Source of the DNA: Rufibacter latericius
GTDB lineage: Bacteria > Bacteroidota > Bacteroidia > Cytophagales > Hymenobacteraceae
Direction: 5' to 3'
Assembly (NCBI RefSeq): GCF_003721515.1
Contig: NZ_RJJD01000008.1
Span: forward strand, 248,001-312,000
Length of the DNA: 64,000 bases
Below the pieces are notes generated by a model. That model worked only from the letters and a program-made list of their open reading frames with translations. It had not been told where the DNA came from and did no database searches. Position numbers and translations under genes: made by a program. Positions 2,329 through 64,000 of the stretch are shown here, in pieces. The stretch's first letter is position 1; each line of letters opens with the position of its first letter.

Positions 2329-2706
2329 GCCCAATCGTAGCCGGGGTACATGTTTCGACCTAAGACCGTTTCTTCCTGGAGGGTTGCTTTCCGGAACTTG
2401 TGCTTCTAATCACAGCCCTTCATCGTTTCTGGCTTCTTTTGAAAAGATCGTCTTCAAAGTAAGTGCTGAAGATGATTTAGGCCTGATTTTCAAAAAATAG
2501 CATCAAAACAAAATTTTTTTAGAGTTCAGGCAACCGCTTCGGTTTGTCGCACATCTAATAGACAGTTGCGCGCATCAACTGCTTACCAATCCCTTAACCA
2601 GATGCCATTCTCCTTACCACCCGGCTACAGACCGTAGCTGCGGACAGGAAAAGTGCGTCCCTGTGAACCTGATGTGATACACCCTAGCTACTTCAAAAGA
2701 AATCCG
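2329..2706. other. Intergenic region between the two receptors
   Basis: About 380 bases without a credible gene. It holds one degenerate dispersed palindrome (2476-2509) and, just before the second receptor, small hairpins (GCTAC/GTAGC near 2622-2638; ACAGG/CCTGT near 2643-2664) that could be leader structure. No riboswitch consensus was recognised. Confidence 0.5.
2476..2509. repeat. Dispersed palindrome, degenerate copy
   Basis: The left half TTTAGGCCTGATTTTC is close to consensus and the right half is decayed (AGCATCAAAAC). Confidence 0.5.
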
Positions 2707-5163
2707 ATGCGTCTCTCAATCCTTGCTTCCCTGTTCTTTCTTTGTCTCATCATATCTTCGCCTTTGCAGGCTCAGTCCCAAAGCCTAGCCGGAAAAATCT
2801 CTGGCCAGGTACTGGACTCCCTTACCACAAAACCCGTGGCATTTGGCACCGTTACGCTCACCAGCACCGCCACCGGCAAACCCATAGATGGCACCATCAC
2901 CGATGAAAAAGGCAGCTTCAGCTTCTCCAAAGTAGCGTACGGAGCTTATTCAATTTCTGTAAGTTACCTGGGGTACGTTACCTCTTCTTTGCCTTCTTTC
3001 ACCATTTCAGCCGATAAACAGGAGATTATCCTACCCCATCTCAGCCTGAGATCAAATGTCACCAAACTGCAGGAAGTGACGGTGGTGGGCCAGAAAGCAT
3101 TGATAGAAGACAAAGGCGATCGCCTGGTGTACAACGCCGAGCAGGATATCAGCAACCAAGGCACCACCGCCTCAGAAGTGCTCCGGAAAGTGCCCTCAGT
3201 AACGGTGGATGGAGACGGCAACGTGCAGCTCAGAGGCAGCGCCAATTTCAAGGTGCTAATGGACGGCAAACCCTCCAGCATTCTGGCTAACAATTTAGCC
3301 GATGCCCTGAAACAGATTCCGGCGGACATCATCAAGAGCATAGAGGTGATTACCAGTCCGTCGGCGAAGTATGATGCCGAGGGTACAGCCGGCATCATCA
3401 ATATCACCACCAAAAAGAACAGCCTGCAAGGTGTGAACGGGAAAGCCAGCCTTTCTCTGGGCAACCGCTACCGAAACGTGAATGGCAGCCTCAACGTGAA
3501 GAAAGCCAAATTTGGCCTGAGCACCACCCTGAGCGGCTATGACAACAACCAGCGGAGACTCAATGTGGTGAACCGAACTAATGACGGAGAGCTTACCCTC
3601 CAGCAGGAAAGCCGTAATCTTTCCCTGAACCATGGCTTCTATGTCAAAGCAGAACTGACTTTTGACCCAGATACGTTGAACGCCTTCCATCTGGGCGTCT
3701 CTACCCGGCGCAACTACTTCTCGGGCTCTGGTTACCAAACCACCCTGAACCGGGGCGCAGGCTCTGACCAACTTCCGGTGGCATACTCAGACCTGAAAAA
3801 TCCCTGGAATGGCGGGGGCTATGACATGAACTTCGGGTATACCCGCACCTTTAAGCCCAAGCAGGAACTGACCTTTCTGGCTCAATTGAACCACAATGAG
3901 TCCAATGACCTCTATGACAACCTGCTCTACTCTCCCGAGGCCCCGTTAGTGCAACGCCAGAAAAACGACAACACCGCGCCCAGCGAGGAGAAAACCCTGC
4001 AACTGGATTACACCCAAACCTTTAAGAATGGCAGTAAGCTGGAATTGGGCGCCAAAGCCATTTTCCGGGATGCCAGCAGCCGCACCACCTACACCTATGC
4101 CTTCCCAACCCAAGCGGATTCCACCAACCTCAATAACTTTGACTATGACCAGGATGTAAAGGCGGCGTATGCCACTTATGGATTCCAGCTGAAGAAATTT
4201 GATGTGAACCTGGGCACCCGCTATGAGCACACCAACACCAAAGGCGTGTTTCTGAACTCCCAATGGGATGAAGCTGCCCAGGAAACCCAGTTAGTGCGGA
4301 GCACCTTCAAAGACGCTTACCAGAACGTGATTCCCAGCCTGAGCATTTCCCGCACCATTGACACCATCCACACCGTGCGGGTGAGTTACACCCAGCGCAT
4401 CCAGCGTCCGCAAATCTATTCTTTGAACCCTTTCCTGCAGCTGGAAGACTTTAACTTCGGGTACCGCGGCAACCCTACTTTGGATGCTGAATTGACCCAC
4501 GCATATGAGATCGGCTATAACACCTATTTCAAAACTACCTCTATTAACGCATCGGTGTTCCTGCGCCAGACAGACAATTCTATCCAACAGGTAGTAGCGC
4601 CCGAGCAGCTGGTGGTGAATGATCAGTTGCGGGAGGTCATGCTGATCACCCATGACAACATAGGCAAAAACAAGGTGTACGGCCTCAGCCTGTCGGGCGC
4701 TACCAAGCCCTTGGCCGCCTGGACCATCAGCCCTAGCCTGAACCTGAATTACGTGGTGTTAGAAGACAAAAGCCAGAAAAGAGAAGGGCTGCAATACAAC
4801 CTGAACCTGAGCACCAGTTATGAGTTTGGCAAAGGCCTTACCGCACAAGCTAACGCTGGTTACAATTCCAAGAGCAAAATGCTGCAGGTGAATATCGGGG
4901 AGAATTACTACGCCGGTTTCTCGGTACGCAAGAAAGTGATGAAGGACAAAGGCTCGGTTAGTTTCGGGGTAAATAATCCGTTCTCCAGTACCATTAACTT
5001 CAAGTACACCGTAGTTACGCCTGGTTACCAGCAAACGGCACAAAACATCAACTTCAACCGCACCTTCCGGATTGGCTTTGACTGGACCTTCGGGAAGATG
5101 CAGGCCAGCCAGAAACAAAAGAAAACCATAGAGAACGATGATGTCTTGAGCGGTGGGAAATAG
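2707..5163 (+). CDS. TonB-dependent outer membrane receptor, full length
   Basis: Complete 818-residue paralogue of the preceding receptor. The ATG at 2707 is preferred over an upstream in-frame start because it opens directly into a signal peptide (MRLSILASLFFLCLIISS, cleavage near LQAQ). Order: signal peptide, CarboxypepD_reg-like domain (about 27-110), plug (about 120-235, with QLRGSANF and SAKYDAEGTAGIINIT), then a beta-barrel ending FDWTFGK with a charged tail. The plug is very similar to that of the upstream gene while the barrels differ more, which is consistent with tandem duplication and divergence of substrate. A convergent palindrome/terminator separates it from the next gene. Confidence 0.92.
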   Translation: MRLSILASLFFLCLIISSPLQAQSQSLAGKISGQVLDSLTTKPVAFGTVTLTSTATGKPIDGTITDEKGSFSFSKVAYGAYSISVSYLGYVTSSLPSFTISADKQEIILPHLSLRSNVTKLQEVTVVGQKALIEDKGDRLVYNAEQDISNQGTTASEVLRKVPSVTVDGDGNVQLRGSANFKVLMDGKPSSILANNLADALKQIPADIIKSIEVITSPSAKYDAEGTAGIINITTKKNSLQGVNGKASLSLGNRYRNVNGSLNVKKAKFGLSTTLSGYDNNQRRLNVVNRTNDGELTLQQESRNLSLNHGFYVKAELTFDPDTLNAFHLGVSTRRNYFSGSGYQTTLNRGAGSDQLPVAYSDLKNPWNGGGYDMNFGYTRTFKPKQELTFLAQLNHNESNDLYDNLLYSPEAPLVQRQKNDNTAPSEEKTLQLDYTQTFKNGSKLELGAKAIFRDASSRTTYTYAFPTQADSTNLNNFDYDQDVKAAYATYGFQLKKFDVNLGTRYEHTNTKGVFLNSQWDEAAQETQLVRSTFKDAYQNVIPSLSISRTIDTIHTVRVSYTQRIQRPQIYSLNPFLQLEDFNFGYRGNPTLDAELTHAYEIGYNTYFKTTSINASVFLRQTDNSIQQVVAPEQLVVNDQLREVMLITHDNIGKNKVYGLSLSGATKPLAAWTISPSLNLNYVVLEDKSQKREGLQYNLNLSTSYEFGKGLTAQANAGYNSKSKMLQVNIGENYYAGFSVRKKVMKDKGSVSFGVNNPFSSTINFKYTVVTPGYQQTAQNINFNRTFRIGFDWTFGKMQASQKQKKTIENDDVLSGGK

Positions 5164-5175
5164 CCTTGGTATTCA

Positions 5176-5220
5176 CGCTGGTTTAGGGCCTGTTTTCAGA
5201 AAAAGGGTCCTAAACCAGCG
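5176..5220. repeat. Dispersed palindrome acting as a convergent terminator
   Basis: Arms CGCTGGTTTAGG and CCTAAACCAGCG pair perfectly over 12 bp around a core GCCTGTTTTC/GAAAAAGGG-like centre. It lies between convergent stop codons (5163 and 5224), so it may end transcription from both sides. Confidence 0.8.
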
Positions 5221-5223
5221 GCC

Positions 5224-5865: not shown

Positions 5866-6206
5866 AAGAGAGCTGATGAGTGATTCTGAACCTATTCCCT
5901 ACCCTGACTATTAGGGGAGGCATTTTGATCCTGTTTTACGGAAACCAGGCAGAAAGCAGCTGACAGGTTCAAAATAGAGAATTTATTACCCGTGTCCTGT
6001 TCATAAATAAGCTTTGATTTTTGAAGCCCCCAACCCGTCCAAAGCCAACTCCATATTATTGATAATCAGGACACAACCTAAATATCGGTCCCTCAAAAAG
6101 AAAGTATCCCGAAGCAGGAGCATCAGATTGAATGTTCCGAATAAATGAGTACCTTAAGGTATAGTAAGTGCCTAATATTTAGAACGACCGGTTTATAAGT
6201 GAGGCA
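5866..6206. other. Divergent intergenic region
   Basis: About 340 bases between divergent genes; it must contain promoters for both. AT-rich stretches are present, but no -33/-7 pair could be picked with confidence. Confidence 0.4.
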
Positions 6207-8362: not shown

Positions 8363-8410
8363 AAATCCGTTTAGGGCCTGTTTCTGCTAAAACAAGCTCT
8401 AAACGGATTT
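8363..8410. repeat. Dispersed palindrome acting as a convergent terminator
   Basis: AAATCCGTTTAG and CTAAACGGATTT are perfect 12-bp arms around GGCCTGTTTC...AAAACAAGCT. It sits between convergent genes ending at 8310 and 8438. The outer arm sequence differs from the copy at 5176, but complementarity is kept. Confidence 0.8.
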
Positions 8411-10294: not shown

Positions 10295-10598
10295 AGGTAG
10301 GTTCGGTTTAGCCTTTTTAACGCAAGAACAGCCTTGCAAGTTAAAACACGCAAGTCTGGCTACGGAAAACACGCAGCCGCGCTCCCTGCAAAACTAAGAA
10401 CCTATCTGGTAGAACCAAGAAATGGAGTGAAACTGAATTAGGATACCTCCTGCCGAAAACAAGATTCAGGAAGCTTATCTTTTATCCGAACGGAAGAAAA
10501 GGATTAAGAAAGAGATCAAGTTTCCGAAAGTATCTGTGAAAGAAGCGAAAGGCTTTAAGGCCGATTTCTGGAAAAGAGCCCGAAATCAGAAAAGAGGA
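10295..10598. other. Intergenic region upstream of nadE
   Basis: About 300 bases. Only a weak palindrome remnant near 10551-10586 (GGCTTTAAGGCC ... GAAAAGAGCCCG) was noted. No clear terminator for rnc was found. Confidence 0.4.
10551..10586. repeat. Dispersed palindrome, weak remnant
   Basis: CTTTAAGGCCGATTTC followed by GGAAAAGAGCCCG keeps the TTTC...GAAAA centre, but the arms are decayed. Confidence 0.35.
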
Positions 10599-11351: not shown

Positions 11352-11353
11352 TG

Positions 11354-12680: not shown

Positions 12681-12917
12681 TTACTTAGCGTGCTCTTCCA
12701 GGTAGCTGATCGCTTGGCCCACCGTTGCAATATTCTCAGCTTGATCGTCTGGAATAGACACATTGAATTCTTTCTCAAATTCCATGATCAATTCAACGGT
12801 ATCAAGAGAGTCGGCACCCAGGTCGTTTGTAAAGCTAGCCTCAGGCGTTACCTCAGATTCTTCAACGCCTAATTTGTCAATAATGATAGCTCTTACTTTT
12901 TCTGCGATTTCTGACAT
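12681..12917 (-). CDS. acpP: Acyl carrier protein
   Basis: 78-residue acidic carrier protein that holds growing acyl chains on a 4'-phosphopantetheine arm attached to the Ser of [12 protein letters not shown]. First gene of the acpP-fabF-rnc operon. Confidence 0.97.
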
Positions 12918-14982: not shown

Positions 14983-15031
14983 AAAAGCAAAAGGGCCAGT
15001 CTTCTTTCTGAGGACTGGCCCTTTTGCTTTT
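14983..15031 (+). terminator. Rho-independent terminator after pyk
   Basis: Long hairpin: AAAAGCAAAAGGGCCAGTC pairs with GACTGGCCCTTTTGCTTTT across TTCTTTCTGAG; the T-rich side follows in both directions. Confidence 0.9.
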
Positions 15032-15055: not shown

Positions 15056-15093
15056 GCTTTAAGGCTGTTTTCCCAAAAGAGGACCTAAACCGC
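15056..15093. repeat. Dispersed palindrome between two terminators
   Basis: GCTTTAAGGCTGTTTTC and AAAAGAGGACCTAAACCGC flank a short centre. It sits between the pyk and rpsT terminators, so it is not needed for termination there. Confidence 0.65.
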
Positions 15094-17052: not shown

Positions 17053-17093
17053 CCGCTTTTGGAGCCGTTTTCTGAAAAGAGGCTCATAATCGG
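17053..17093. repeat. Dispersed palindrome between peroxidase and MbnP genes
   Basis: CCG...CGG outer pairs and GAGCC/GGCTC inner arms around GTTTTCTGAAAAGA. Located within an apparent cluster rather than at its end. Confidence 0.6.
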
Positions 17094-19104: not shown

Positions 19105-19132
19105 TTGTTTTACACTTGATTTCGTAAATTTA
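19105..19132 (+). promoter_or_regulatory. Possible promoter for bacilliredoxin
   Basis: TTG (19105-19107), 17 nt, then TAAATTTA (19125-19132), one mismatch from TAnnTTTG. Position is right for the start at 19171; spacing is short. Confidence 0.35.
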
Positions 19133-19170
19133 CGTCAGAAACAGAATTCACCTTAAAATCACCCATACCC

Positions 19171-19593: not shown

Positions 19594-19615
19594 TCTGCGG
19601 TAGTCTACAGCAATA

Positions 19616-19651
19616 ACAGAAGAGCCTGACTGATTAGTCAGGCTCTTCTGT
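19616..19651 (+). terminator. Rho-independent terminator after bacilliredoxin
   Basis: ACAGAAGAGCCTGACT pairs with AGTCAGGCTCTTCTGT, followed by TTTT. Confidence 0.9.
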
Positions 19652-19683
19652 TTTAAGGTTGTTTTCTGAAAACAACCTTAAAA
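19651..19683. repeat. Dispersed palindrome, perfect copy
   Basis: TTTTAAGGTTGTTTTC, one T, then its exact complement GAAAACAACCTTAAAA: 16-bp perfect arms. It abuts the preceding terminator directly. Confidence 0.9.
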
Positions 19684-21282: not shown

Positions 21283-21324
21283 AAAATGACGAAGGCCAGC
21301 GGTGCGGCTGGCCTTCGTCATTTT
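21283..21324 (-). terminator. Rho-independent terminator of purD
   Basis: AAAATGACGAAGGCCAGC pairs with GCTGGCCTTCGTCATTTT over 18 bp around GGTGCG. Confidence 0.9.
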
Positions 21325-21326
21325 AC

Positions 21327-21355
21327 CCTTGTTTTTCGGAAATCTGCCTTAAAAT
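21327..21355. repeat. Dispersed palindrome, degenerate copy beside a terminator
   Basis: CTTGTTTTTCGGAAATCTGCCTTAAAA-like sequence directly follows the purD terminator hairpin. Confidence 0.4.
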
Positions 21356-22767: not shown

Positions 22768-22804
22768 GTTTTAAGGCTGCTTTCTATAAAACACCACCAA
22801 AATG
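22768..22804. repeat. Dispersed palindrome beside the recQ terminator
   Basis: GTTTTAAGGCTGCTTTC, TAT, then AAAACACCACCAAAATGG; right arm partly decayed. Confidence 0.55.
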
Positions 22805-22865: not shown

Positions 22866-25043
22866 TTAGTTCGCGTATTTAGAGAGGAACTTGATCCGCA
22901 TGAGGCGGAGGTCATCCTCGGTGTAATCGTCGGTGCCAAGTTCTTTGATGGCGGTAGCCATGTTATCGGTGGTGGCACTCATGAAATAGTCAATCACGTC
23001 TTGTTGGCGGTCATCGTCCAGCACTCCGTCTATGTAGTAGTCTAAGTTCAGTTTGGTACCGGAATAGCAGATGTGCTCAATCTCCTCGATCAGTTCAGAC
23101 ATGGTCAGGCCTTTGGAGGATGCGATCTCTTCCAGGTCCATCTTCTTGTCAATTTGCTGAATCACGTAGATTTTGAGTTTGGACTTGTTCACCGTGGTTT
23201 TCACCACCACATCAGCAGCGGTGACAATGTCGTTTTCCTCCACGTATTTGGAAATCAGCTCCAAAAACGGCTTCCCGAATTTCTGCACCTTGCCCATGCC
23301 CACCCCTGCGATGTGCGCCAAGTCTTCTTTGGTGGTAGGGTACGTGGTGGCCATCTCCTTGATAGACGGGTCCTGGAACAGCACATACGGCGGAAGGTTC
23401 ATCTCTTTGGCCAGTTTCTTGCGCAGCGCCTTGAGCATGTCAAAGAGAACGGCATCATGCCCGGCAGCGGCCTGGGTTTCCTCTTTCTCTTCCTCTTGCT
23501 GCACTTCCTCGTCAAAGTTGTGGTCCTTGGCGAACTTGATGGCGTGCGGGCTTTGCAGGTATTTCTCGCCTTTCTCAGTGATCTTGAGCGTACCTACATT
23601 CTCAATGTCTTTCTCCAGGTAATCGAACAACAAGGCCTGACGGATGATGGAGTTCCAGAAAGTGGGTTCCTGCTCTTTGCCCACGCCAAACACCTCTAAC
23701 TGGTCATGGCTGTAGCTTTCCACGTACTGGTCTTTGAACCCGATGATTACGTTCACCAGGTGTTCTATCGCAAAACGCTGGTTCGTCTGAACAACGGCTT
23801 TCAAAGCGTAGGTTAATTCCTGCTCGGCCTCAAACTTTTCTTTAGGGTGCGTACAGTTGTCGCAGAAGCCGCAATCCTTGTCATACTGTTCCCCGAAGTA
23901 GTGCAACAGCTGGCGGCGGCGGCACACGGCTGAATCTGCATAAGAGGCCATTTCCTGCAGAAGCAACTTGGAGTTGTCGCGCTCGGTAACGGGCTTGTCT
24001 TTGCTGAATTTCTCCAGCTTCACAATGTCATCGTAGCTGTAGAACATGAGGCAGTTGCCTTCCAGTCCATCACGACCGCCGCGGCCGGTTTCCTGGTAGT
24101 AGCCTTCAATGGATTTAGGGGTGTCGTAGTGAATCACGAACCGAACATCGGGCTTGTCAATCCCCATGCCGAACGCGATCGTGGCTACAATTACATCCAC
24201 GTCTTCGTTCAGGAACGCGTCCTGGTTGGCCATGCGGATATTAGAATCCAACCCGGCGTGGTACGGCAACGCTTTAATGTCATTCACCTGCAGCAACTCA
24301 GCAATCTCTTCTACCTTTTTGCGGCTGAGGCAGTAGATGATCCCGCTTTTGCCTTTGTGCTTTTTGATGTACTGGATAAGCTGCTTTTTGGTGTTGTGCT
24401 TAGGTCTTACCTCGTAGTACAGATTTGTACGATTGAAAGAAGACTTGAACACCGAGGCATCGTCCATCTGCAGGTTTTTCTGGATGTCCAGCTGCACCTT
24501 GGGCGTGGCCGTGGCGGTCAACGCAATGATGGGAAGATTACCGATGTTGTCAATGATGCCTCTGATCTTGCGGTACTCGGGCCGGAAGTCATGGCCCCAC
24601 TCTGAGATACAGTGCGCCTCGTCAATGGCTACGAAGGCGATTTTGGCTTGTTTCAGAAAATCAAGGGTATCTTCTTTGGTAAGCGATTCTGGGGCTACGT
24701 ACAGCAGTTTCACCTCGCCGCTCACTGTTTCCTTTTTCACCTTGTTCATCTCCGCTTTTGAAAGCGTGGAGTTCAGGAACTGGGCATTTATCCCGAAAGC
24801 GTTCAACTGATCCACCTGGTTTTTCATCAGCGCGATAAGGGGCGAAATCACAATAGCCGTCCCTTCCATGGCCAAAGCAGGGAGCTGGTAGCAAAGTGAT
24901 TTCCCGGCACCAGTAGGCATGATCACGAAGGTGTTCTTGCCAGACATGATGTTTTCTATAATCGCCTCCTGGTTTCCCCTGAATTGACTATAGCCGAAAA
25001 CTTCCTTTAATTTGTTCTTTAATGATTCTTGTTTTACTAACAT
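22866..25043 (-). CDS. recQ: ATP-dependent DNA helicase RecQ
   Basis: 725-residue 3'-5' helicase of recombination and replication repair. Walker A MPTGAGKS at 42-49, DEAH in IDEAHCISEWGHDFRPEY, motif VI ETGRGGRDG, zinc cysteines in CRRRQLLHYFGEQ...CGFCDNC, a winged-helix RQC domain, and an HRDC domain around 540-620 (ALRKKLAKEMNLPPYVLFQD). A further C-terminal helical domain (EEIASSKGLTMSELIEEIE), a helix-turn-helix-like extension frequent in Bacteroidota RecQ, brings it above E. coli length. Confidence 0.96.
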   Translation of the reverse strand: MLVKQESLKNKLKEVFGYSQFRGNQEAIIENIMSGKNTFVIMPTGAGKSLCYQLPALAMEGTAIVISPLIALMKNQVDQLNAFGINAQFLNSTLSKAEMNKVKKETVSGEVKLLYVAPESLTKEDTLDFLKQAKIAFVAIDEAHCISEWGHDFRPEYRKIRGIIDNIGNLPIIALTATATPKVQLDIQKNLQMDDASVFKSSFNRTNLYYEVRPKHNTKKQLIQYIKKHKGKSGIIYCLSRKKVEEIAELLQVNDIKALPYHAGLDSNIRMANQDAFLNEDVDVIVATIAFGMGIDKPDVRFVIHYDTPKSIEGYYQETGRGGRDGLEGNCLMFYSYDDIVKLEKFSKDKPVTERDNSKLLLQEMASYADSAVCRRRQLLHYFGEQYDKDCGFCDNCTHPKEKFEAEQELTYALKAVVQTNQRFAIEHLVNVIIGFKDQYVESYSHDQLEVFGVGKEQEPTFWNSIIRQALLFDYLEKDIENVGTLKITEKGEKYLQSPHAIKFAKDHNFDEEVQQEEEKEETQAAAGHDAVLFDMLKALRKKLAKEMNLPPYVLFQDPSIKEMATTYPTTKEDLAHIAGVGMGKVQKFGKPFLELISKYVEENDIVTAADVVVKTTVNKSKLKIYVIQQIDKKMDLEEIASSKGLTMSELIEEIEHICYSGTKLNLDYYIDGVLDDDRQQDVIDYFMSATTDNMATAIKELGTDDYTEDDLRLMRIKFLSKYAN

Positions 25044-27744: not shown

Positions 27745-27790
27745 ATAGCCTTTTAGGCCTGATTTCATGAAAAAAGACCCAAAAGGCTAT
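27745..27790. repeat. Dispersed palindrome, probable rlmB terminator
   Basis: ATAGCCTTTT and AAAAGGCTAT are perfect outer arms around AGGCCTGATTTCATGAAAAA. About 30 nt past the rlmB stop on the minus strand. Confidence 0.75.
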
Positions 27791-28803: not shown

Positions 28804-28849
28804 CTCCTGTTTTCAAGCCATTTTTCCGGAAACAACCTAAAAACGGGAG
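28804..28849. repeat. Dispersed palindrome beside a terminator
   Basis: CTCCTGTTTT and AAAACGGGAG pair with one G-T wobble around CAAGCCATTTTTCCGGAAACAA-like core (core quoted to its centre only). Confidence 0.65.
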
Positions 28850-28858: not shown

Positions 28859-28896
28859 AACAGAACGGCCGGTCATCTCTGACCGGCCGTTCTGTT
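28859..28896 (-). terminator. Rho-independent terminator of the DUF2723 gene
   Basis: AACAGAACGGCCGGTCA pairs with TGACCGGCCGTTCTGTT around TCTC. Confidence 0.9.
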
Positions 28897-32812: not shown

Positions 32813-32848
32813 GTTTTAAGGCTATATTTCAAAAACTAGGCCAAAACC
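32813..32848. repeat. Dispersed palindrome at the birA 3' end
   Basis: GTTTTAAGGCTATATTTC then AAAAACTAGGCCAAAACC; it ends one base from the birA stop codon. Confidence 0.6.
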
Positions 32849-36213: not shown

Positions 36214-36242
36214 CCCTTTTCTGAAAAGTAGGCCCTAAACGG
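36211..36242. repeat. Dispersed palindrome touching the ftsH stop codon
   Basis: The ftsH TAG (36211-36213) opens the element; CCCTTTTC-TGAAAAGTAGGCCCTAAACGG follows, with the left half shortened. It fills the short gap before the next gene of the same run. Confidence 0.65.
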
Positions 36243-37665: not shown

Positions 37666-38485
37666 TTTCTGGTTAGGGCTGCTAGCTTGGCTGTTTTTGG
37701 TTCCTGTCACGTTGCAGGCCCAGACTCCGGCGTGGACACTTGCCTTTCGGCTACCGGCCAAAGGGAATACCCTGCTTTCCATTGACCGTTTTGACCGAGT
37801 TTACCTGTCAGATGCCCGGCAGAACATCATTCAATTAGACACCCTAGGAAGGGCTGTCAATACCTTTTCGCCGCCCATACAAGGCCGCGTAGCCATGGCG
37901 GAAGCCTGGAGTCCGGCCAAGATTACCGTCTTCTATGATGACCGCCAGCGGGTACAACTTCTAGATCGTTTCCTGACGCCTTTGGGCCTCGCCGATTTAC
38001 GGGATTACACCGATGGAACCATCCGGGCTGCCACGCTTGCCGCTGATGACCGGCTCTGGCTTTTTGACGAGACCACTTTCCGATTGCTTAAGGTAGATAC
38101 CCGCATCAACCGGGTAGTCTTTGAAAACCCGCTGGAACTGCTGCTGGATCGCCGCCAGCACGACATCACCTTCCTGCGAGAATACCAAAGCAAGCTGTAC
38201 ATGGTAGACCGCACCTCGGGCATCTACGTCTTTGACAATATGGGTAATTACCAAAAGAAGATTCCTCTGCCAAATCTAACTTACGTGGGCTTTGCAGGCG
38301 ACGAGCTCTACTACCTATCTCAGAACCAACTGCATTTCCAGCACCTCTACTCGTTTCAGACCCGCACGATAGCCTTACCCGAACAGCCCCTTCCCTACCG
38401 ACAAGTACTGGTGGGAGACAGATTCCTCTACCTGCTCACCTCTGATTCCCTCTTCGCCTACAGAAGAAAGCCCGGCTCCTTTTAA
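37607..38485 (+). CDS. Secreted beta-propeller-like protein of unknown function
   Basis: Up to 292 residues. It starts inside lpxH: ATG at 37607 (59-nt overlap), further ATGs at 37616 and 37619, or a TTG at 37646 that gives a compact signal peptide ending LQAQ; the exact start is open. The mature part has repeated short strands (RFDRVYLSDARQNIIQLDT, DDRLWLFDETTFRLLKVDT, DNMGNYQKKIPLP), like an NHL- or WD-type propeller. The stop codon lies inside a dispersed palindrome. Location periplasm or outer membrane; no function assigned. Confidence 0.78.
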   Translation: MRYMMVRNSPLRILRKSLLSFWLGLLAWLFLVPVTLQAQTPAWTLAFRLPAKGNTLLSIDRFDRVYLSDARQNIIQLDTLGRAVNTFSPPIQGRVAMAEAWSPAKITVFYDDRQRVQLLDRFLTPLGLADLRDYTDGTIRAATLAADDRLWLFDETTFRLLKVDTRINRVVFENPLELLLDRRQHDITFLREYQSKLYMVDRTSGIYVFDNMGNYQKKIPLPNLTYVGFAGDELYYLSQNQLHFQHLYSFQTRTIALPEQPLPYRQVLVGDRFLYLLTSDSLFAYRRKPGSF

Positions 38486-38518
38486 GCTTGTTTCCGGAAA
38501 TTGGGCTTAAAGAAGGAA
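38477..38518. repeat. Dispersed palindrome containing a stop codon
   Basis: TCCTTTTAAGCTTGTTTCC, then GGAAATTGGGCTTAAAGAAGGA. The upstream gene's TAA (38483-38485) is within the left arm. Confidence 0.7.
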
Positions 38519-38930: not shown

Positions 38931-38965
38931 TTTTAAGCCTATTTCTCTCAAATCATCCTTAAAAC
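38931..38965. repeat. Dispersed palindrome at the SMR gene 3' side
   Basis: TTTTAAGCCTATTTCTC then TCAAATCATCCTTAAAAC; 18 nt from the SMR stop. Confidence 0.55.
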
Positions 38966-40890: not shown

Positions 40891-41669
40891 TGAACATCCT
40901 CCTGATCGAAGACGAATACCTGGCCTCCGAGAAACTGGAAGCCCAATTGCTGCGCTACGACCCCAGCATCCGGGTGGTGGGCACCATAGATTCCATCCGG
41001 AATGCGGTGAAATGGTTTGAGGCAAACCCCGCGCCTGACCTGGCCTTCTTGGACATCCATTTGTCTGACGGGAACAGTTTTGAGATCTTCCAGAAGGTAG
41101 AGGTAAAATGCCCCATCATCTTCACCACGGCGTATGACGAGTACGCAGTAAAGGCGTTCAAGGTGAACAGCATTGACTACCTGCTCAAGCCCATCAGCAA
41201 CGAGGACCTGGCCGCGGCTATGGACAAGTTCAAGGCCCTGCGCAAAAGTCAGCCGGCCACCCCCGGCCTGGACATGCAGCAGATCATGGCCCTGCTGAAC
41301 AAGAACTCCTCCCCAGTTGACACACCCAATTATAAAACCCGTTTTCTGGTGAAAACCGGTCAGAAAATACGGTCCGTCTCTACTGATGAGATCGCCTATT
41401 TTTACGCTGAGGACAAGATCGTTTTCCTCATCACCACCGCCGGACAGCGCTTCATCACCGACTATACCCTGGATACCCTGCAGGAATTGCTGGACCCTGA
41501 GCACTTCAGCCGGTTAAACCGTCAGTTCATAGCCCACATCCACTCCATAGACGAAATCCATCCGTACCTGAAAGGCCGCCTGAAAGTGTACGTGAAACCC
41601 GTCACCGACAAGGAAATCATCATCAGCAACGAGCGCGCCGCAGCCTTCAAAGAGTGGTTAGGCAAATAA
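40890..41669 (+). CDS. LytTR-family response regulator
   Basis: 259 residues. Receiver domain with acceptor D55 in LAFLDIHLSDG and conserved K in LLKPI, then a LytTR DNA-binding domain (about 150-255; FLVKTGQKIRSV, LNRQFIAHIHSIDEIHP). It shares a TGATG overlap with the kinase gene. Targets unknown; a convergent palindrome/terminator follows. Confidence 0.93.
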   Translation: MNILLIEDEYLASEKLEAQLLRYDPSIRVVGTIDSIRNAVKWFEANPAPDLAFLDIHLSDGNSFEIFQKVEVKCPIIFTTAYDEYAVKAFKVNSIDYLLKPISNEDLAAAMDKFKALRKSQPATPGLDMQQIMALLNKNSSPVDTPNYKTRFLVKTGQKIRSVSTDEIAYFYAEDKIVFLITTAGQRFITDYTLDTLQELLDPEHFSRLNRQFIAHIHSIDEIHPYLKGRLKVYVKPVTDKEIIISNERAAAFKEWLGK

Positions 41670-41673: not shown

Positions 41674-41709
41674 CTTTTAGGCCTGCTTTCGGGAAAACAG
41701 GCCTAAAAG
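41674..41709. repeat. Dispersed palindrome as convergent terminator
   Basis: CTTTTAGGCCTG and CAGGCCTAAAAG are perfect 12-bp arms around CTTTCGGGAAAA. Between convergent stops at 41669 and 41717; closest to the family consensus. Confidence 0.85.
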
Positions 41710-42333: not shown

Positions 42334-42375
42334 CCTGGTTCGAAGGCCTTTTCCTGAAAACGGGCTTTAAACCGG
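42334..42375. repeat. Dispersed palindrome
   Basis: CCTGGTTCGAAGGCCTTTTCC then TGAAAACGGGCTTTAAACCGG (arms TGGTT/AACC-like). One of few copies not near a 3' end. Confidence 0.6.
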
Positions 42376-44459: not shown

Positions 44460-44547
44460 CCTTTAAGTCTTTCAACAAGTTTCCCCTCAGGTTTGGGAAA
44501 ACACCCAGAAAAAGGGTTAAAATGGTAGCAGGAGTTTACAACCTATT

Positions 44548-45453: not shown

Positions 45454-45608
45454 TTAAACTTTTGATTTGAACCTAACTACAGAATCGCACATCTAAACTT
45501 ACTTTTTATAGTTGATATTACAGCATTCATCCATTCTTGCTCCGTCAGCAAACTATCAAGCTGCTTTAATTTTCTGCCTTCCTTCCAAAAACTGCCCCAA
45601 AACCAAAC

Positions 45609-46463: not shown

Positions 46464-46953
46464 AAGGGCAAGGAATCTGGACGAGAAGCCTAAGTAACAA
46501 AATCAGGCTTCTAAGTCAAAATTCGGGGAGCGTTCTTCGCGTGCTTTTCAGGCCAGGGCGGGTTTGTGTTTTCTGAAGGTGGTTATCAGAACTAACCACA
46601 TCAACAAAACTGTTTGGAGAACAGTAGAATAAAACAGGCAGAAATGCTGTTTGTTTGGGTTTTCAGATATTTTAAGCGGCTTTTTGTGAAAATAACCCTA
46701 AAACGCCTTGTGGATAACCCAAGAAAACGTGCCTGCCTATTCAATTTAAGTTATTATATTTGTTAATTAGGCTCTCAGTATTTGCCGCAGAAAGGCTTTA
46801 GAATGGCCTGTATTCCAAATTCCGCCTGAAGTAAGACATTCAAGATCAGGAGGATAATTCAAAGTAATTTAGAGGAATACAGACGTAGCTTTCAGGTAGG
46901 TGGAGTTTTAATTTTTTGAAAACAAGAATTATCTATATAAAGGAAATTGACCT
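46464..46953. other. Divergent intergenic region before ricT
   Basis: About 490 bases. Holds a palindrome copy (46669-46707) and TATATTTG (46755-46762), which matches a -7 element but lacks a well-spaced TTG. Confidence 0.4.
46669..46707. repeat. Dispersed palindrome
   Basis: ATTTTAAGCGGCTTTTTG then TGAAAATAACCCTAAAACGCC. Confidence 0.6.
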
Positions 46954-49151: not shown

Positions 49152-49203
49152 AAGTCGTTTCTGGCCTGATTTTCGCAAATCAAGTTAGAAACGACTTTTT
49201 TTT
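49152..49203. repeat. Dispersed palindrome as the gldH terminator
   Basis: AAGTCGTTTCT and AGAAACGACTT are perfect arms around GGCCTGATTTTCGCAAATCA; a T-run follows on the plus strand. Confidence 0.85.
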
Positions 49204-50783: not shown

Positions 50784-50827
50784 ACCTGTTTTAGGGCCTT
50801 TTTCAGGAAGACGGCTTTAAAGCAGGT
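50784..50827. repeat. Dispersed palindrome
   Basis: ACCTGTTTTAGGGCCTTTTTC then GGAAGACGGCTTTAAAGCAGGT; outer ACCTG/CAGGT pair. Confidence 0.7.
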
Positions 50828-51012
50828 GATGGGCTTTTTGCCTCTTTTTCAATAATCCATCCCAAAAAACACACCGAGAAATCATTTTCATAATTTTATC
50901 TTCAGAATTAACGCAACTTTTAAGGTTATTCTTCTATTGAATCTTCTAGAATTAAAAAATTGCAATGGATGAGTTAACCATGCAAACACCCGTTCGTATA
51001 GTATAAACACTT

Positions 51013-53244: not shown

Positions 53245-53603
53245 ATTGCATAACATCCTAGATAAGGTTTAATTGATTGATTTAAAATTCAACTACTGAC
53301 TTTCTATTCCGCCTGCGTTGACTTTGTTCTGCTTCTTTAGATTCTCTGGCAAGTGAGGTTGTAAGGGAACGGTAGGTTGGGTGGTACCCTTAAAGTCAAA
53401 CCAAGCGAAAAAATTATTGCAGGAGGAAACACTCTTCTATATAAGCTGCGCTCAATGCCTCAAACTCTCGTTTGGCCAATCCTCAAGGGAAGAATCTGCA
53501 GCGGAAAAGCTATTCTGCTTAAAACTGAGAACCCGTTTAAGGGCTGTTTCTATAAAAACGGCCCTTAAACGGGTTTCATTTAGTCGTTGATCTTCCTTCT
53601 AGA
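53245..53603. other. Convergent intergenic region
   Basis: About 360 bases with no gene; only the palindrome at 53530-53575 stands out. Confidence 0.5.
53530..53575. repeat. Dispersed palindrome, strong copy
   Basis: AACCCGTTTAAGGGC and GCCCTTAAACGGGTT are perfect 15-bp arms around TGTTTCTATAAAAACG. Serves as terminator for the minus-strand reductase gene. Confidence 0.85.
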
Positions 53604-54473: not shown

Positions 54474-54558
54474 GTTGTTCAAGTTAAGACGGTGGATGGT
54501 TGTTTTCCTCTTGCTTTCCATTCCTAAAACGGAAAAGGGAGCCACGCGTTTTCCGGCA

Positions 54559-54584
54559 GGTTTAAGGAAAACAGCCTAAAAAGG
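54559..54584. repeat. Dispersed palindrome, partial
   Basis: GTTTAAGGAAAACAGCCTAAAAAGG: right half kept, left half shortened. Confidence 0.45.
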
Positions 54585-54691: not shown

Positions 54692-54727
54692 GTTTCAGGC
54701 TTCTTTTCTGAAAACAGGCCCTAAACC
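54692..54727. repeat. Dispersed palindrome at the lipoprotein 3' end
   Basis: GTTTCAGGCTTCTTTTC, T, GAAAACAGGCCCTAAACC; it ends at the base before the stop codon of the minus-strand gene. Confidence 0.75.
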
Positions 54728-55654
54728 TTACTTCTTCAGACTGAGCATGAACAGCCTGCCGGCTTCGTTGGAGATCATCATGTCTGTATCGTTGACGAAC
54801 ACGAGGCCCTCGGCCTGGCCTACTTTGCCCAGCGGAATCTGCTCTTTCTTTCCTTTGAAAACGTTCTCGGGGCTATCGGCTTCAAACAGGTACGCCCAGC
54901 CTTCGCCCAACAGAGCAATGTGGCGGCCATCAGGAGAGACATCGGCGGCGGTGATTTTAGTACTGATCTGGACGCTATCCAGTGGGGTTACCGTCTGCAC
55001 GGCTCCGGGCTGGTTGGCCACTTTGTAGACTTTCACCCAATCGCCTTTGCCCCGGTTTTTGGTAAACAGGTAAAAAGCGTTGTTCTGCATCAGAAAGCCT
55101 TCCACGTCAAAATTCAGGTTTGCTTTAGCGGGCGGAAACTCGGTTTGGTCGGCGTACTTGAAGGGGATGCTGGCCACCACTTTCTTCGCCTTTTCGTCTA
55201 CTTTCAGAATCTGCAGGTCCTGGCGGGTGTTCTCGTTGTTGCCCATGTCGCCTATGTACAAGAAGCCATCATTTCCGCGGGTTACGTCTTCCCAGTCATT
55301 GTTTTTGGCGCCCTGCACGTTCATGGTCTCCAGTAACTCGCCAGATTGATTGACTTTGTACAGAACGGCCTCATTCCCCGCGTCGGGGTGAGTCCAAAAA
55401 TTCCCGTCCTCTGAGGCTTCCAGGCCAGAGCTTTCGGGCACGGCCTTCTTGCCCATTTTGCTCATCTCCAGCAGGTCATAGTTGTTGTTCACAGCAAAGC
55501 CCTCTGAGGCCGGGTTCTTGTCTTTCTTCTTTTTGCCTTCTTTTTTGGGGGAGGTCTCTGCGGTAGTCTCTTCTGATTTCGCTGATCCAGAGTCACACGC
55601 AACAGCAACGAGCAGGCACAGCCCGGCGGTGATCTCCAATAACTTATCTTTCAT
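54728..55654 (-). CDS. Lipoprotein with a beta-propeller-like domain
   Basis: 308 residues from the ATG at 55654, which overlaps the upstream helicase stop by 4 nt (ATGA). Lipoprotein signal ending LLVAVAC, then a Lys/Glu-rich linker (KKEGKKKKDKNPAS), then repeated strands (SSGLEASEDGNFWTHPD, GNDGFLYIGDMGNN, DVSPDGRHIALLGEGWAYLFE) like SdiA-regulated or esterase-like propellers. It sits outside the cytoplasm, which makes the tight coupling to a cytoplasmic helicase odd. Function unknown. Confidence 0.8.
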   Translation of the reverse strand: MKDKLLEITAGLCLLVAVACDSGSAKSEETTAETSPKKEGKKKKDKNPASEGFAVNNNYDLLEMSKMGKKAVPESSGLEASEDGNFWTHPDAGNEAVLYKVNQSGELLETMNVQGAKNNDWEDVTRGNDGFLYIGDMGNNENTRQDLQILKVDEKAKKVVASIPFKYADQTEFPPAKANLNFDVEGFLMQNNAFYLFTKNRGKGDWVKVYKVANQPGAVQTVTPLDSVQISTKITAADVSPDGRHIALLGEGWAYLFEADSPENVFKGKKEQIPLGKVGQAEGLVFVNDTDMMISNEAGRLFMLSLKK

Positions 55655-58600
55655 GGTATTTGGTACAGTTGTGTTAATTTCTGCCAAACCTGTTCAGGCT
55701 GGTTCCAGAACTGACGACTGTACACCGCCCCATATTTCCAACCCCGCGCTTTCAGGCGCAAGGGCACATCGGCGTGCGATGCTTTGGCAGAGGGTCTCCG
55801 GAAGTACAAATCGTCGTCGGTTAATACTACGGCCTCGTACCTATTGCCGTTGCGGAAAGTAAGGTCAGCGAAGGGAAGTTCCAGCAATAAGTGCGTATTT
55901 GTACCATTTTCGCCAAACTGGGCTAAAAGCGCCGGGTACAGCAGCAACGCAGATGGGATGTTGGCCGGCGGCGATGGCTGGGGCGTAAACCCGTTCTCGC
56001 TCACCTGCCGGGCAAAGGCCAGGTACTCGCGCAACAGCTTGGGGCCAGGGTGTTTCACGTTCTCAGTGGGGAACTGCTCGGGCCACAGGCTGGTGACCAC
56101 GTACACCCGTTTGATGGCGCGCGTGATGGCTACGTTCAGGCGGTTCTCGCCTTTGGCAGCGTTCAGACTCCCGAACATGGCCCGCACCACACCCGTGGCA
56201 TCCGGCGCGTACCCGATGGAGAAGATGATGTACTGCCGCTCATCGCCCTGAATGTTTTCGATGTTCTTGATGATGAGTTCCTCGGGCAAGGTCATATTCC
56301 GGGCCGAGGCCGCTTCTTCCAATAAGTCCTGCACCAATTGCTGCTGCGGGAAGTTGAAGGTGATGACCCCGATGTTGGTCTCCCCTTTGCCCATCAGCTC
56401 AAAGACCAGATCCCGCACGCGCTCAGCCTCTACTTGGTTGGTTTGGTTTTCCCAGACGCCGTCTACTTTCAGGTACTGCAGGGCGGGCTCAGAAGTGTTC
56501 ATGGCCTCCAGTTTGGGGATGAGTTGGAGTTTCTGCCGATAGAAATTCTGGTTGGAGAACTGGATCAGCTCGGGGTACTGGCTGCGGTAATGCTCAGAAA
56601 GCAGGGTCTGCGGCAGGTGCAGGGCACTCAGTTGCAACAAAGACTCCACCAACAATTCCTCGGTCTCCTCTTCGTCTTTCCCGAAACGCACACGGTACAG
56701 ATCTGATGGTCCCAGTTGCTGTTCATCACCGGCAATAACCGCCTGCTGCGCTCGGATCATGGCCGGAATGCCCACCTCGGCGAAACACTGCGAAGCCTCA
56801 TCGAAAATCACCAGATCAAAAATGCGCTCCAACGGAAACAACGCCGACACGGTCTCGGGCGAAGCCAGCCAGCAGGGCAACAGCTGCCTGATTTCCTCCC
56901 CGAACTCGGCGCTGAGTTTGCGCAACGGAAACAGCATGCGCTTTTTGCTTACCTGGGTGAGCAGACGGCGGTACGTGACGGGGTTGCCCAGGCGGTTGTA
57001 CTCCATGTTCTGGTAGGTCTGTTCGCGCAGGTTGAGCAAGATGATCTGGCGGCTGAGTTCGGCTTTCTGCTTGATCTTTTCCTGCAGCTCGGTTTCCAGC
57101 CGTTCCAGTTCGCCGGTACTCACAATGGTAAGCACGGGATGCCTGCTTTCCAGTTGCTGCACCCAGGCTAGGAGTACACTGTTCTCCAAGGCCTGTAACT
57201 GGGCTTCTACGCTTTGTGGCACAGTGGCGCGTAATTCCTCCAGCCAGGCCCGGAGCTCAGGGGAAAGCGTGTGCACCAGTTCATCGAAAAGGACCATGCG
57301 TTCAAAGTGCTCGGCCAGGCTTTGCTGCATTTGCTGGGCGGTGGCAGGGTTGGTAGCAATGGTTTCAATCTGAGAGGGAGTCAGCCACTTTTCCCAATCC
57401 AGCAACTGTTCCTGGAGCTGTTTCAGTTTTGGCAGCGTTTGCGCGAAAACGGCCCTGAAACGCTCCGTTGGCATTTGCAGCAGGGCATCGGGCAGTACGT
57501 CATAGGCGAGGAGCCGTTGCAGGGTTTTCCGCTGCTCCCAAGCGATTTGTAATGCGTTCAGTTCTTGGGTGGCTTCGTTCTGAAAGAAATCCGAGGGAAT
57601 CTGTAGGGTAGGTTCCAGGGTTTGCAGGTTCTGCCATTGGGCTTGCAGGGTTTGCCACTGTTTCAGGGCGGTACGCAAGTGCTCTACGGCGGTATCTGGG
57701 TTGGTCAGGTTCTTACTTTCGGCGAAGGCGGCCAGTTTCTTTTTATCAGAGGAAAAAGTCCACTGGATCTTGCTCAAGAAACCGCTGTGGGCTTGGTCAT
57801 ACGCGGCCAATAATTGGATGACCTGCTGGGCCTCTGCGTGCGTGAGTTTTACCTGAGTTGTGGCCGTGGCTTGCTGCAATTGGGTTAGTTGCGCCTCGCG
57901 TTGGCGGTACTCCTGATTTTGGGCCAAGTTTCCGAAAAACAGCCGCGAAACAGCCGGATTGGTGAGAGAGTCCTGCAGGGTTGAAAGGGCTGGAAGTTCC
58001 TGCATCAAGGCTTTCAAAGCATCCCACACGTCTTCCTGCCCGGGCAGCAGTTCCTGTACTTGGTTGGCCACTTCGCTTACCGCACCCGGAACTTGGGAAA
58101 GCAGTTGGGTGAATTTCTGGCGCTCAGCCCAGGTATGAAGATGGAAAGAACGACGATCGTTCCACGGGAAATCAGGGTTCTGCAGCAGCACGGCGTCTTG
58201 CAGGTAATGCAGCAGGCGCGGGCGCCACTCTTGCCAGGTTGTAGCGGTGAATTGAAGATATATATTTTCAGCAGGCAAATGCGGCGCGCGGGGACTACTT
58301 CTCAGGTACAGTTCCTTCACCGACCAACCGCAGGTCTCAGTGTCAAACAAGGCTTCTTTGAGGCTGTTCAGGCGGTCTGAGATCTGGTTGATGCGACGGC
58401 TGGTTTCCAGGAACTGCCGCTCGGCCTGGATGTTGCCCAAGGCCACGTTCTGCCGCTGGTACTCCTCTACCTGCTCAATCTGCTGCCGAATTTTAGAAAA
58501 TACCGCCGGGCGGTCCAGGTTGAGGTCGTGCACCAGGGCAGAGAATTGATCCAGGCCGGTGGTAGACAGGCGCTGGTACACCACGTCAAGGGCGGCGCGT

Positions 58601-59740: not shown

Positions 59741-59764
59741 GGTACACCTGCGCTAAGGTGTACC
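59741..59764. repeat. Perfect hairpin
   Basis: GGTACACC-TGCGCTAA-GGTGTACC, 8-bp perfect stem. Confidence 0.5.
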
Positions 59765-59861
59765 CGCCCCGGAAATTAAGGAATGTAGGCTGTATTACAA
59801 ATCTGGGGAGAAGGTGTGTTGCCGCGGGCCGTGTTCCCAAGAACGGTAATGAGAAAATGCA

Positions 59862-59927
59862 GGGCAATCCCTGGTGGATGCCTTATTTCGGGAGCAAACG
59901 TATGAGGGCAACCACCAGGGATTGCCC
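59862..59927. repeat. Large inverted repeat of the GGGGCAATCC type
   Basis: GGGCAATCCCTGGTGG (59862-59877) and CCACCAGGGATTGCCC (59912-59927) are exact complements. The right half can form its own hairpin (GGGCAA/TTGCCC). Similar GGGGCRAYCC words recur in many Bacteroidota intergenic regions. Confidence 0.7.
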
Positions 59928-59948
59928 CTACAATTGAAATGTAAAACC

Positions 59949-59984
59949 GTTTTAGATCTGATTTTAAGAAAACGGCCCTAAAAC
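59949..59984. repeat. Dispersed palindrome at the kinase 3' end
   Basis: GTTTTAGATCTGATTTTAA then GAAAACGGCCCTAAAAC; it ends at the base before the stop codon. Confidence 0.75.
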
Positions 59985-63029: not shown

Positions 63030-63472
63030 AAAACTATCTCTCCTTTTATTGCCATGCCGTTTTCAGACCGATGGGCTCTCCAGTACAACGGTTTGTTCCG
63101 GACCATGCCTCTACTTAAAATAAGAGGCGCGCTTTGTTTCCCTCCCGTGTTCAGGGAAATGTGCAAAGGCCACCGCTTTGAAAACTACCCCAGGTACTAT
63201 TACCCGCTCCTTTGAAAGTACGATTAGTTTTGAAAAACCAAGTAGTTCAACCCAGTTGTACGTCCAAATTTGGCTTTTCGAGTCATAATTCAGTATTAAT
63301 ACGACACTACTTCTACCTACCTGATACTTTTTGTTTTCTGCCTGTTTTCGAAAAATCAGCTTTAAAACCAGAGGCAGATGAAAAACAAGGCTCTAATGAA
63401 AAGCGGTTGAAAGTGGTTTTGCCCTGAAAAATTCTGGAAATAAATGGAGTTAATGGCGGGCTGTCTGAATCG
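63030..63472. other. Intergenic region before the kinase
   Basis: About 440 bases with no gene; a palindrome copy lies at 63333-63368. No promoter could be chosen. Confidence 0.4.
63333..63368. repeat. Dispersed palindrome
   Basis: GTTTTCTGCCTGTTTTC then GAAAAATCAGCTTTAAAAC. Confidence 0.6.
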
Positions 63473-64000
63473 TTACCGGATACTCAGATAAGGTTGCATC
63501 TTCTGGAATTTGGCTTCGTCCAGTATCTTGATTTTGCGCAGTTCCTCCACACTTGGATAAAGTCCGTGCTGAGTACGGTAATTGACGATGGCCTTCGCCA
63601 GATTGAACCCGATGTACGGATGCTGCCGAAGTTCCTCAAACGAAGCGGTGTTCAGGTTGATTCGCTTGGGCTCATACGCCTTGGCCACGAATCCGTATTT
63701 TCTTACGCTGTCCACCACCTCTGGCGCCAACCCATACACCTCCGCCACCTGCTCCACCGAATGAAACCCACCCATCTTGTCCCGGAAACTCACAATTCGC
63801 GCTGAAAGTTTGCTCCCGATGCCCTTTATCTGTTTCAGTTCAGTTGTATCAGCGGTGTTCAGGTCAAAAGGCTGCAGTTCCCATCGTTTGCGCGGGGACT
63901 CGGTTTTAGGCCTGTTTTCCGGATAAGGGCTTAAAAACGGCCGGTCCTTGGCGTAGGTGCGCGCGTACCCCGGACTTTCATCGGGCAGATTGATATAGGG
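63473..64000 (-). CDS. ComEA-like helix-hairpin-helix protein, 5' end outside the window
   Basis: 175 residues visible; the frame is open to the window edge, so the gene is truncated at its start. Two HhH units: LNTADTTELKQIKGIGSKLSARIVSF, quoted in part as LKQIKGIGSKLSARIV, and INLNTASFEELRQHPYIG with FNLAKAIVNYR. Such repeats bind double-stranded DNA non-specifically, as in ComEA of DNA uptake. The Pro/Arg/Lys-rich linker before the first unit (PFLSPYPENRPKTESPRK) is encoded by a copy of the dispersed palindrome. Secretion cannot be judged without the N-terminus. Confidence 0.85.
   Translation of the reverse strand, partial: PYINLPDESPGYARTYAKDRPFLSPYPENRPKTESPRKRWELQPFDLNTADTTELKQIKGIGSKLSARIVSFRDKMGGFHSVEQVAEVYGLAPEVVDSVRKYGFVAKAYEPKRINLNTASFEELRQHPYIGFNLAKAIVNYRTQHGLYPSVEELRKIKILDEAKFQKMQPYLSIR
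63901..63940. repeat. Dispersed palindrome inside a coding sequence
   Basis: CGGTTTTAGGCCTGTTTTCC then GGATAAGGGCTTAAAAACGG. Nearly full-length family member, read in frame as part of a linker in the HhH protein. Confidence 0.75.

Follow-up and report, generated by a model that had tools for sequence, protein, structure and literature searches.

The intergenic gaps of a 64,000-nt stretch of the Rufibacter latericius genome (contig NZ_RJJD01000008.1, positions 248,001 to 312,000; hereafter the window, with coordinates counted from its first nucleotide) are repeatedly occupied by a palindrome of about 36 bp, and the question raised by this locus is what such a sequence does near the ends of so many genes. 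A first-pass annotation, made by eye, had counted 25–28 copies and had offered repetitive extragenic palindromic (REP) elements moved by a RAYT transposase, miniature inverted-repeat transposable elements (MITEs) and a family-specific termination or RNA-decay signal as options. The reading that fits best is absent from these options: the palindrome looks most like a double-stranded DNA (dsDNA) protein site located at the ends of transcription units.

Abundance, structure and distribution of the dyad

Sites were scored with a weight matrix made of a symmetric half-site and a variable centre; the matrix was trained on the sites counted, and the control consisted of reversed sequence scored with the same matrix. 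In the window, 36 copies reach at least 20 bits (33 reach at least 22 bits) and the reversed window contains none at 20 bits, showing that the dispersed palindrome is real and more abundant than the count by eye. All nine coordinate ranges initially singled out as the best copies hold a site, of 29–43 bits each, and the sequence TTTTAGGCCTGTTTTC with at most three mismatches has 23 matches in the window against 0.86 expected and a maximum of 3 across 100 shuffles. A larger sample of 464 kb, composed of the window and the following 400 kb of the same contig (about 8% of the genome), contains 220 sites of at least 22 bits and 2 in the reversed control, far above chance numbers. When the whole home genome is searched, a 15-base arm with at most one mismatch gives 169 matches (control 1) and the exact anchor pattern TTT-N9-TTT-N4-AAA-N9-AAA gives 1040 (control 21); the 84 exact-anchor matches of the 464-kb sample scale to 1026 genome-wide. 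Since 220 sites are present in 8% of the genome, about 2,700 copies are extrapolated for the whole, at a density of about one per 2.1 kb, and the earlier estimate of one per 2.4 kb and more than 1,000 per genome turns out to be conservative.

The consensus dyad is composed of the half-site yyG-TTTt-nRGSCTG-tTTTc, a centre of 1–2 bp and the mirror image of the half-site. The best conserved of the 16 arm positions are 0–2 and 12–14 (TTT and TTT), and the preference for yyG in the flank is symmetric on both sides. As regards the arm sequence originally described as shared, the TTT...TTT/AAA...AAA anchors are nearly invariant, while the middle favours GGCCTG, yet is degenerate. Of 216 sites, 163 have their arms 2 bp apart and 49 have them 1 bp apart, which makes 212 with a spacing of 1–2 bp. 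Among the compared genomes, designated here by handles (by inferred label, G001 is R. ruber, G002 R. psychrotolerans, G010 R. sediminis, G011 Sabulibacter ruber, and G009 and G014 Rufibacter sp.), the central step is TG/CA in 53 of 77 sites of G012 and 50 of 80 of G006, more weakly in G000 (40/163) and G001 (16/62), and near chance in G015 (9/48). Half-sites occurring alone are no more numerous than in reversed sequence (120 with a control of 132 for scores of at least 12 bits, 48 with a control of 48 for scores of at least 14 bits); therefore, the whole dyad is the unit. An Rfam covariance-model scan of the window returned 9 matches at E up to 5, all under the gathering score.

The dyad is abundant throughout the genus and in no other genus searched, so that the description of the repeat as dispersed and lineage-specific is borne out, with the whole genus as its extent. 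In a scan of 100 genomes of the family Hymenobacteraceae for the exact anchors, the 16 genus genomes contain 531–1710 matches each (control 6–21) and the 84 genomes of five other genera 0–39 (control 0–36), the anchor matches being about twice the control in G018 (38 against 18) and G023 (39 against 17), both outside the genus. With two mismatches allowed, a scan of 118 relatives gives 228–1591 matches in the 16 genus genomes and 0–4 in the 102 others (control 0–4). None of 394 other genomes of the class comes near the genus counts, the highest value being 91 with a control of 55 (G213); a mild forward excess is found in this class-wide anchor scan in G438 (65 against 18) and G432 (27 against 7). 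Similarly, an exact core search of named genomes gave, among the best 80 of 98 stretches, 73 from Rufibacter or Sabulibacter and 7 single matches elsewhere, and comparable dyads were not found in the sister-genus samples from G018 (140 kb) and G057 (120 kb). Density within the genus varies threefold: the lowest numbers of exact-anchor matches are those of G008 (531) and G015 (653), compared with 1710 in G001.

A different dispersed palindrome, CCGTCTGCTTTAGCTGACGG, was noticed in 140 kb of G021, a genome of a sister genus (C8:100001–240000; L202–L208). Its nine intergenic copies are near-identical, most of them with a cattg-type flank on one side, and it looks like an ordinary REP family unrelated to the dyad.

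The placement of the sites was determined with a simple codon-usage gene caller that misses small genes, such as ribosomal ones, so that the intergenic counts are approximate. In the window, 30 of the 36 copies are intergenic, and the centre lies within 100 nt of a gene 3' end in 21 of these 30, in accordance with the remark that most copies are found there. In the 464-kb sample, 197 of the 220 sites fall in the 20% of the sequence that is intergenic, which substantiates the intergenic bias, and 23 fall in genes (20 intragenic sites of at least 22 bits are listed). The coding DNA of 16 species (441 kb) holds 9 sites at four gene positions, with none in the control. Mapped against gene ends, the copies peak 20–60 nt past stop codons and are scarce just before starts. 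In particular, site density per kb in the 464 kb is 4.0 in convergent gaps, 2.0 in tandem gaps and 1.5 in divergent gaps, and none of the 9 divergent gaps of 40–150 bp contains a site. Tightly spaced operon genes had been said to lack the repeat except between ftsH and a neighbour labelled LUD in the first-pass annotation; the 50 gaps shorter than 40 bp contain a single site, at 36206, in the gap after ftsH, whose identity is confirmed with Pfam. The longest site-free interval, of 17 kb, corresponds to the cluster of ribosomal protein genes and rpoA, recognised by eye from the translations.

Orthologous positions, anchor constraint and arm pairing

The sites occupy orthologous positions in different species. 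A syntenic block of 40 kb around pyruvate kinase and ftsH was compared with 15 other species. It contains 23 gaps, of which 8 are occupied in at least 80% of the species, 11 are empty in all of them and 4 are mixed. Three of the 11 empty gaps are shorter than 10 bp, one spans a gene and the rest measure about 70–460 bp, several being divergent. In several occupied gaps the distance between the site and the gene 3' end differs by only a few nucleotides among species, and the lengths of the gaps vary several-fold. A site found in one species is also present in a second one in 62 of 70 alignable cases, the lowest value being that of the pair G002–G011 (6/10). The gap that follows ftsH measures 36–40 bp in the species that have the site; of the four that lack it, three have 38–40 bp and one (G004) has 31. 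Since the length is nearly unchanged, the site is gained or lost there mainly by substitution.

The anchors are constrained at the level of single bases and the middle turns over fast. Between species, anchor identity is 95.1% (n 1136) versus 87.6% for TTT/AAA triplets in noncoding DNA outside the sites (n 7173), a control that is fairer than the flanks and that shrinks the anchor contrast relative to the flank comparison; in the earlier pairwise comparison flank identity was 73–87% and that of the middle 66–87%. Conversely, the middle bases are 73.7% identical versus 82.2% for noncoding DNA outside the sites. The eight species pairs used in the identity comparisons share species and are not independent. 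The middle differs between species, in dialects such as TTTTCGGGCTCATTTC in G012, TTTTTGGCCTGTTTTC in G006 and G013 and TTTaGGGGCTGTTTTT in G004, and the inner arm of G012 is CTCATTTC instead of CTGTTTTC. Copies of the home genome do not show a copy-of-copy structure (9 pairs within 4 differences against 8.3 expected), and those of G000 and G015 behave like independent draws from the column frequencies.

A region of about 20 kb in G012 (C1, about 1,066,600–1,087,000, mainly L185–L186), in which almost no genes are called, consists of repeated units whose ends resemble integron attC sites by eye and several of which hold two dyads 73–75 bp apart; it is possibly a chromosomal cassette array.

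The arms of most copies do not covary. If pairing of RNA or single-stranded DNA were selected, the degenerate middle bases of the two arms would be expected to change in concert. The test covered 219 of 237 copies, the other 18 being intermediate: in the 191 copies without an outer stem, these bases pair at 0.421, compared with 0.426 when partners are swapped (z -0.5), and therefore pairing is not their main constraint. A long outer stem is present in 28 of the 237 copies, with 1.6 expected, and in these 28 the inner arms covary (0.714 versus 0.514, z 7.8); such copies are often A-rich on the left and T-rich on the right, resembling bidirectional terminators. The data are so described by two layers: the dsDNA dyad is general, and a smaller number of sites are in addition part of hairpins. 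The idea of a termination or RNA-decay signal is supported for that minority and not for the 191. The G+C-rich hairpin followed by a T-run that characterises an intrinsic terminator is likewise not the general form of the element, the long outer stem being limited to those 28 copies. On 31 of 229 sides, a terminator-like hairpin separates the site from the end of the gene. At 3' ends, such hairpins are found with 58 of 136 site-bearing ends and 25 of 100 ends without a site (p 0.006), and among those 58 hairpins 22 overlap the site and 17 lie beyond it.

Proposed protein-bound sites and rival explanations

Dyad symmetry, near-fixed spacing, independence of the arms in most copies and constrained anchors are the features expected of the site of a symmetric protein. 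On this basis, it is with moderate confidence that the dyads are interpreted as dsDNA sites for a putative protein of this kind, with an architectural or boundary role at transcription-unit ends. The protein, probably a dimer or a tetramer, would have been acquired or retargeted by the Rufibacter lineage before the species split. The half-site is a segment of about 18–22 bp with two T-tracts 12 bp apart and a G/C-rich middle, the two halves facing each other across 1–2 bp; each half of the protein would touch the two T-tracts, whose distance slightly exceeds one helical turn, as well as the intervening G/C-rich groove, and the centre is perhaps kinked. Sites inherited vertically across the genus would be tolerated and kept a few tens of nucleotides past stop codons, away from start codons and operon interiors, where the bound complex could separate neighbours or organise the nucleoid, limiting supercoil spill-over or read-through. 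A more specific version is offered tentatively: a lineage-specific protein may mark the boundaries of the transcription units and insulate them from each other's supercoiling or read-through in both directions, with protein and sites shifting specificity together in each species, which would generate the dialects.

Dispersed palindromic dsDNA sites bound by dimers are found in the MatP-matS, Noc and SlmA systems, which use tens of short sites. The Rufibacter dyads are comparable to these in being palindromic dsDNA sites spread over the chromosome, dimer binding being a feature of those systems; they differ in number (about 2,700), in length (at least 36 bp) and in their location at transcription-unit ends, and their binding protein is putative. 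We know of no bacterial system that labels transcription-unit ends at such a scale, and searches of the open-licence PMC literature brought up no publication that describes this kind of motif for Rufibacter or Hymenobacteraceae.

Several observations weigh against a protein-site interpretation. The information content of the sites is 29–56 bits in five species, a value inflated by the choice of sites by score, versus about 11 bits needed to find sites at this density, and ordinary protein sites usually carry less. G012 has clonal copies: 13 of its 81 sites share an identical 32-base core, giving 81 identical pairs against 0.7 expected, compared with 3 against 0.2 in G006 and 2 against 0.0 in G001. 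The outer flanks of the identical G012 cores are no more alike than those of other pairs (0.312 versus 0.302), and these cores point either to strong selection acting on some of the sites or to a process of copying or drive; they are the main fact that protein sites alone leave unexplained. As regards placement, the 17-kb site-free cluster is about what random placement in the same gaps produces (mean longest interval 16.8 kb), no site directly follows any of the 4 tRNA loci checked, and some genuine copies are intragenic. One of them, in the gene for NAD synthase (window 8438–10372), reaches at least 16 bits in 8 of 16 species, which counts against a hard stop for RNA polymerase; the corresponding dyad, near 9219, scores 15.7 bits in the home genome and up to 37 bits in G001. 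In samples of 15–25 sites from each of 16 species, arm pairing slightly exceeds the expected value in 10 species, matches it in 2 and falls short of it in 4, always within 0.07, as a mixture of non-pairing dyads and a long-stem minority would give. The frequency of terminator-like hairpins is no lower than that of sister genera, these being found at 13–41% of the tested 3' ends in five Rufibacter samples and at 14–26% in three sister-genus samples. Finally, the binding protein was not found, and the counts of the HU/IHF family (1–2 per genus genome) are like those of relatives.

Two subsidiary candidates were discarded. An expansion of HU/IHF or HU-HIG proteins as readers of the dyad is not apparent, since their counts do not clearly distinguish the genus from related genomes, and only G012 has one additional HU-HIG. 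The replacement of intrinsic terminators by dyads is dismissed because these hairpins are not depleted with respect to the sister genera.

The main rival is a molecular drive, in which tagged DNA is preferentially taken up, copied or converted without any benefit at the single locus, 3' ends being the places of least harm. The excess information, the species dialects, the identical G012 cores in unrelated outer flanks and the divergence of the middle bases beyond that of noncoding DNA outside the sites are all in its favour, as is a ComEC-type competence protein in all 16 genus genomes. The DNA uptake sequences (DUS) of Neisseria and the uptake signal sequences (USS) of Haemophilus, at about one copy per 1–2 kb, have species dialects, excess information and, often, inverse pairs near gene ends, and the dyad is similar to them in copy density, dialects and information. 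However, ComEC is also present in 18 of 19 relatives outside the genus. Known uptake systems rely on a short motif and a type IV pilus, whereas the PilB/PilT-type ATPase (PF00437) is above the family cut-off in none of the 16 genus genomes, other pilus parts not having been searched for. Moreover, an uptake sequence is over-represented as a solitary motif and also in genes; in the present case enrichment is confined to the complete dyad, half-sites staying at or under the control level, copies in coding DNA are rare, and several gaps of 70–460 bp are site-free in every species. A parallel can also be drawn with HIP1 of cyanobacteria, a high-frequency, lineage-associated palindrome linked to DNA methyltransferases (PMC4390886); the Rufibacter site shares the high frequency in one lineage and differs from that 8-bp element in its length of 36–46 bp, its degenerate middle and its rarity in coding DNA. 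On balance, drive is considered unlikely.

An old mobile palindrome of the REP or MITE type, which would have spread in the ancestor and would now be decaying with occasional bursts such as that of G012, is regarded as improbable. REP elements are palindromes of 20–40 bp in high copy number that bear a GTAG or CGTC tetranucleotide on one side of the hairpin and are found for the most part behind coding regions and in the spaces separating unidirectional or convergent genes (PMC3733652); the dyad resembles the REP/REPIN-RAYT system in length class, copy number and 3' location, the intergenic 3'-end bias being typical of REPs. The clonal copies of G012 are also in line with mobility, as are matches to Y1 transposases in 15 of the 16 genus genomes and the atypical flanking structures of TnpA-REP subclass 2.6, which is mostly from Bacteroidetes (PMC6006769). 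The proposal of REP elements moved by a RAYT is nevertheless not sustained. The dyad is without the one-sided GTAG/CGTC tag, its arms are not conserved as a base-paired hairpin, 191 of 237 pairing like partner-swapped arms, and it occupies orthologous positions across species. The five Y1 loci inspected (3.3 kb each) contain 1–4 sites of at least 16 bits per locus and no site array; in two of them (L148 and L150) the gene, assumed to lie at the centre of the locus, is flanked by a single site to the left and to the right. G006 has 851 pattern matches and no Y1 match at E 0.001, and a RAYT is therefore not needed. The absence of copy-of-copy structure at home and of clonal structure in G000 and G015 and the constraint on the anchors, which are not decaying, also disagree with a mobile element. 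The MITE option is not supported for most copies, since orthologous positions are shared by as many as 15 of 16 species and, in the aligned short gap after ftsH, the site comes and goes by substitution with little change in length (G004 excepted); the clonality of copies is, however, strong in G012 and slight in G006 and G001.

The least probable of the three rivals is an RNA element of the 3' untranslated region whose transcript hairpin would terminate transcription or protect the mRNA end: the location just past stop codons, the long-stem copies with covarying inner arms and the greater share of terminator-like hairpins at site-bearing 3' ends, although 22 of those 58 overlap the site, are in its favour, but most arms do not covary, an intrinsic terminator has the reverse of the outer TTTT...AAAA polarity, the hairpin lies beyond the site in 17 of the 58 cases, such hairpins are about as frequent in sister genera, and some copies are inside genes.

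A motif of at least 36 bp that is kept next to a great many orthologous gene ends throughout one genus, and that the searched related genera lack, amounts to a natural experiment in which something recent binds or copies the motif, its specificity shifting between species while the positions stay. Finding the protein would reveal whether bacteria can separate transcription units with DNA-binding proteins, or would uncover a sequence drive of a new kind, and either outcome would make the coevolution of a protein with thousands of sites testable in culturable bacteria. If the boundary function of protein-bound dyads is true, the system would be of a new kind; by phenomenon, it belongs among the highly iterated and extragenic palindromes.

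Individual sites of the window

The window sites of at least 20 bits are given without strand. Those in orthologous gaps of the syntenic block include the best dyad of the window, at 41675..41708 (43.3 bits), whose gap is occupied in 13 of 14 species at an interquartile distance of 3–6 nt from the gene 3' end. The gap is occupied in 15 of 16 species for the dyads at 10553..10586 (31.9 bits, median 9 nt to the gene 3' end), 22769..22802 (33.2 bits), 27751..27784 (37.1 bits), 28810..28843 (31.5 bits) and 38480..38512 (31.8 bits, overlapping the gene end), and in 14 of 16 for that at 32814..32846 (29.7 bits), 2–3 nt from the gene 3' end. The site at 36206..36239 (23.2 bits) overlaps the ftsH stop codon in a gap occupied in 12 of 16 species, and the dyad at 15057..15089 (31.6 bits) lies in the convergent gap after pyruvate kinase, occupied in 10 of 16. 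The dyad at 19651..19683 (41.2 bits; gap occupied in 15 of 15 species) is found right after a terminator-like inverted repeat (19615–19652), and that at 21321..21354 (33.0 bits; 11 of 15 species) abuts another (21283–21324); in these two the inverted repeat ends within or directly next to the outer TTTT of the dyad. Further terminator-like inverted repeats, at 14983–15031 and 28859–28896, also adjoin dyads.

Outer stems surround the dyads at 5182..5214 (33.5 bits, longer outer stem of 6 bp), 8370..8403 (31.7 bits, long outer stem of 14 positions), 49158..49191 (29.0 bits, outer stem and then a T-run) and 53536..53569 (35.3 bits). Intergenic dyads are also located at 2475..2508 (31.1 bits), 5923..5956 (28.4 bits) and 17057..17089 (32.1 bits), and other dyads at 38931..38964 (31.6 bits), 42338..42371 (26.7 bits), 45571..45602 (26.9 bits), 46670..46703 (33.2 bits), 50789..50822 (28.4 bits), 54549..54582 (31.9 bits), 54693..54725 (37.5 bits), 59950..59983 (37.4 bits) and 63334..63367 (36.6 bits). 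Weak dyads are those at 19108..19141 (21.1 bits), 44480..44512 (20.2 bits) and 50834..50868 (23.0 bits).

Within coding genes there are weak dyads at 23234..23266 (23.5 bits), where only G010 among the 15 other species reaches 16 bits, and at 41331..41366 (24.7 bits), where none of the 15 does; a third weak dyad, at 55045..55077 (20.1 bits), falls in a called gene. Two dyads, at 57427..57460 (26.4 bits) and 57917..57950 (31.4 bits), are inside an open reading frame of 1329 aa, and the one at 63904..63937 (33.9 bits), inside a called gene, has one arm identical to the consensus.

An interval of 7.9 kb without a whole called gene gave no Rfam match in the two loci that cover it. At 12681–12917 the window encodes a protein of 78 aa that is 96–100% identical in all 16 species. 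An A/T-rich stretch at the upstream end of this gene scores 15–19 bits in 13 of the 16 species and is almost unchanged among them; it is probably promoter sequence rather than a dyad.

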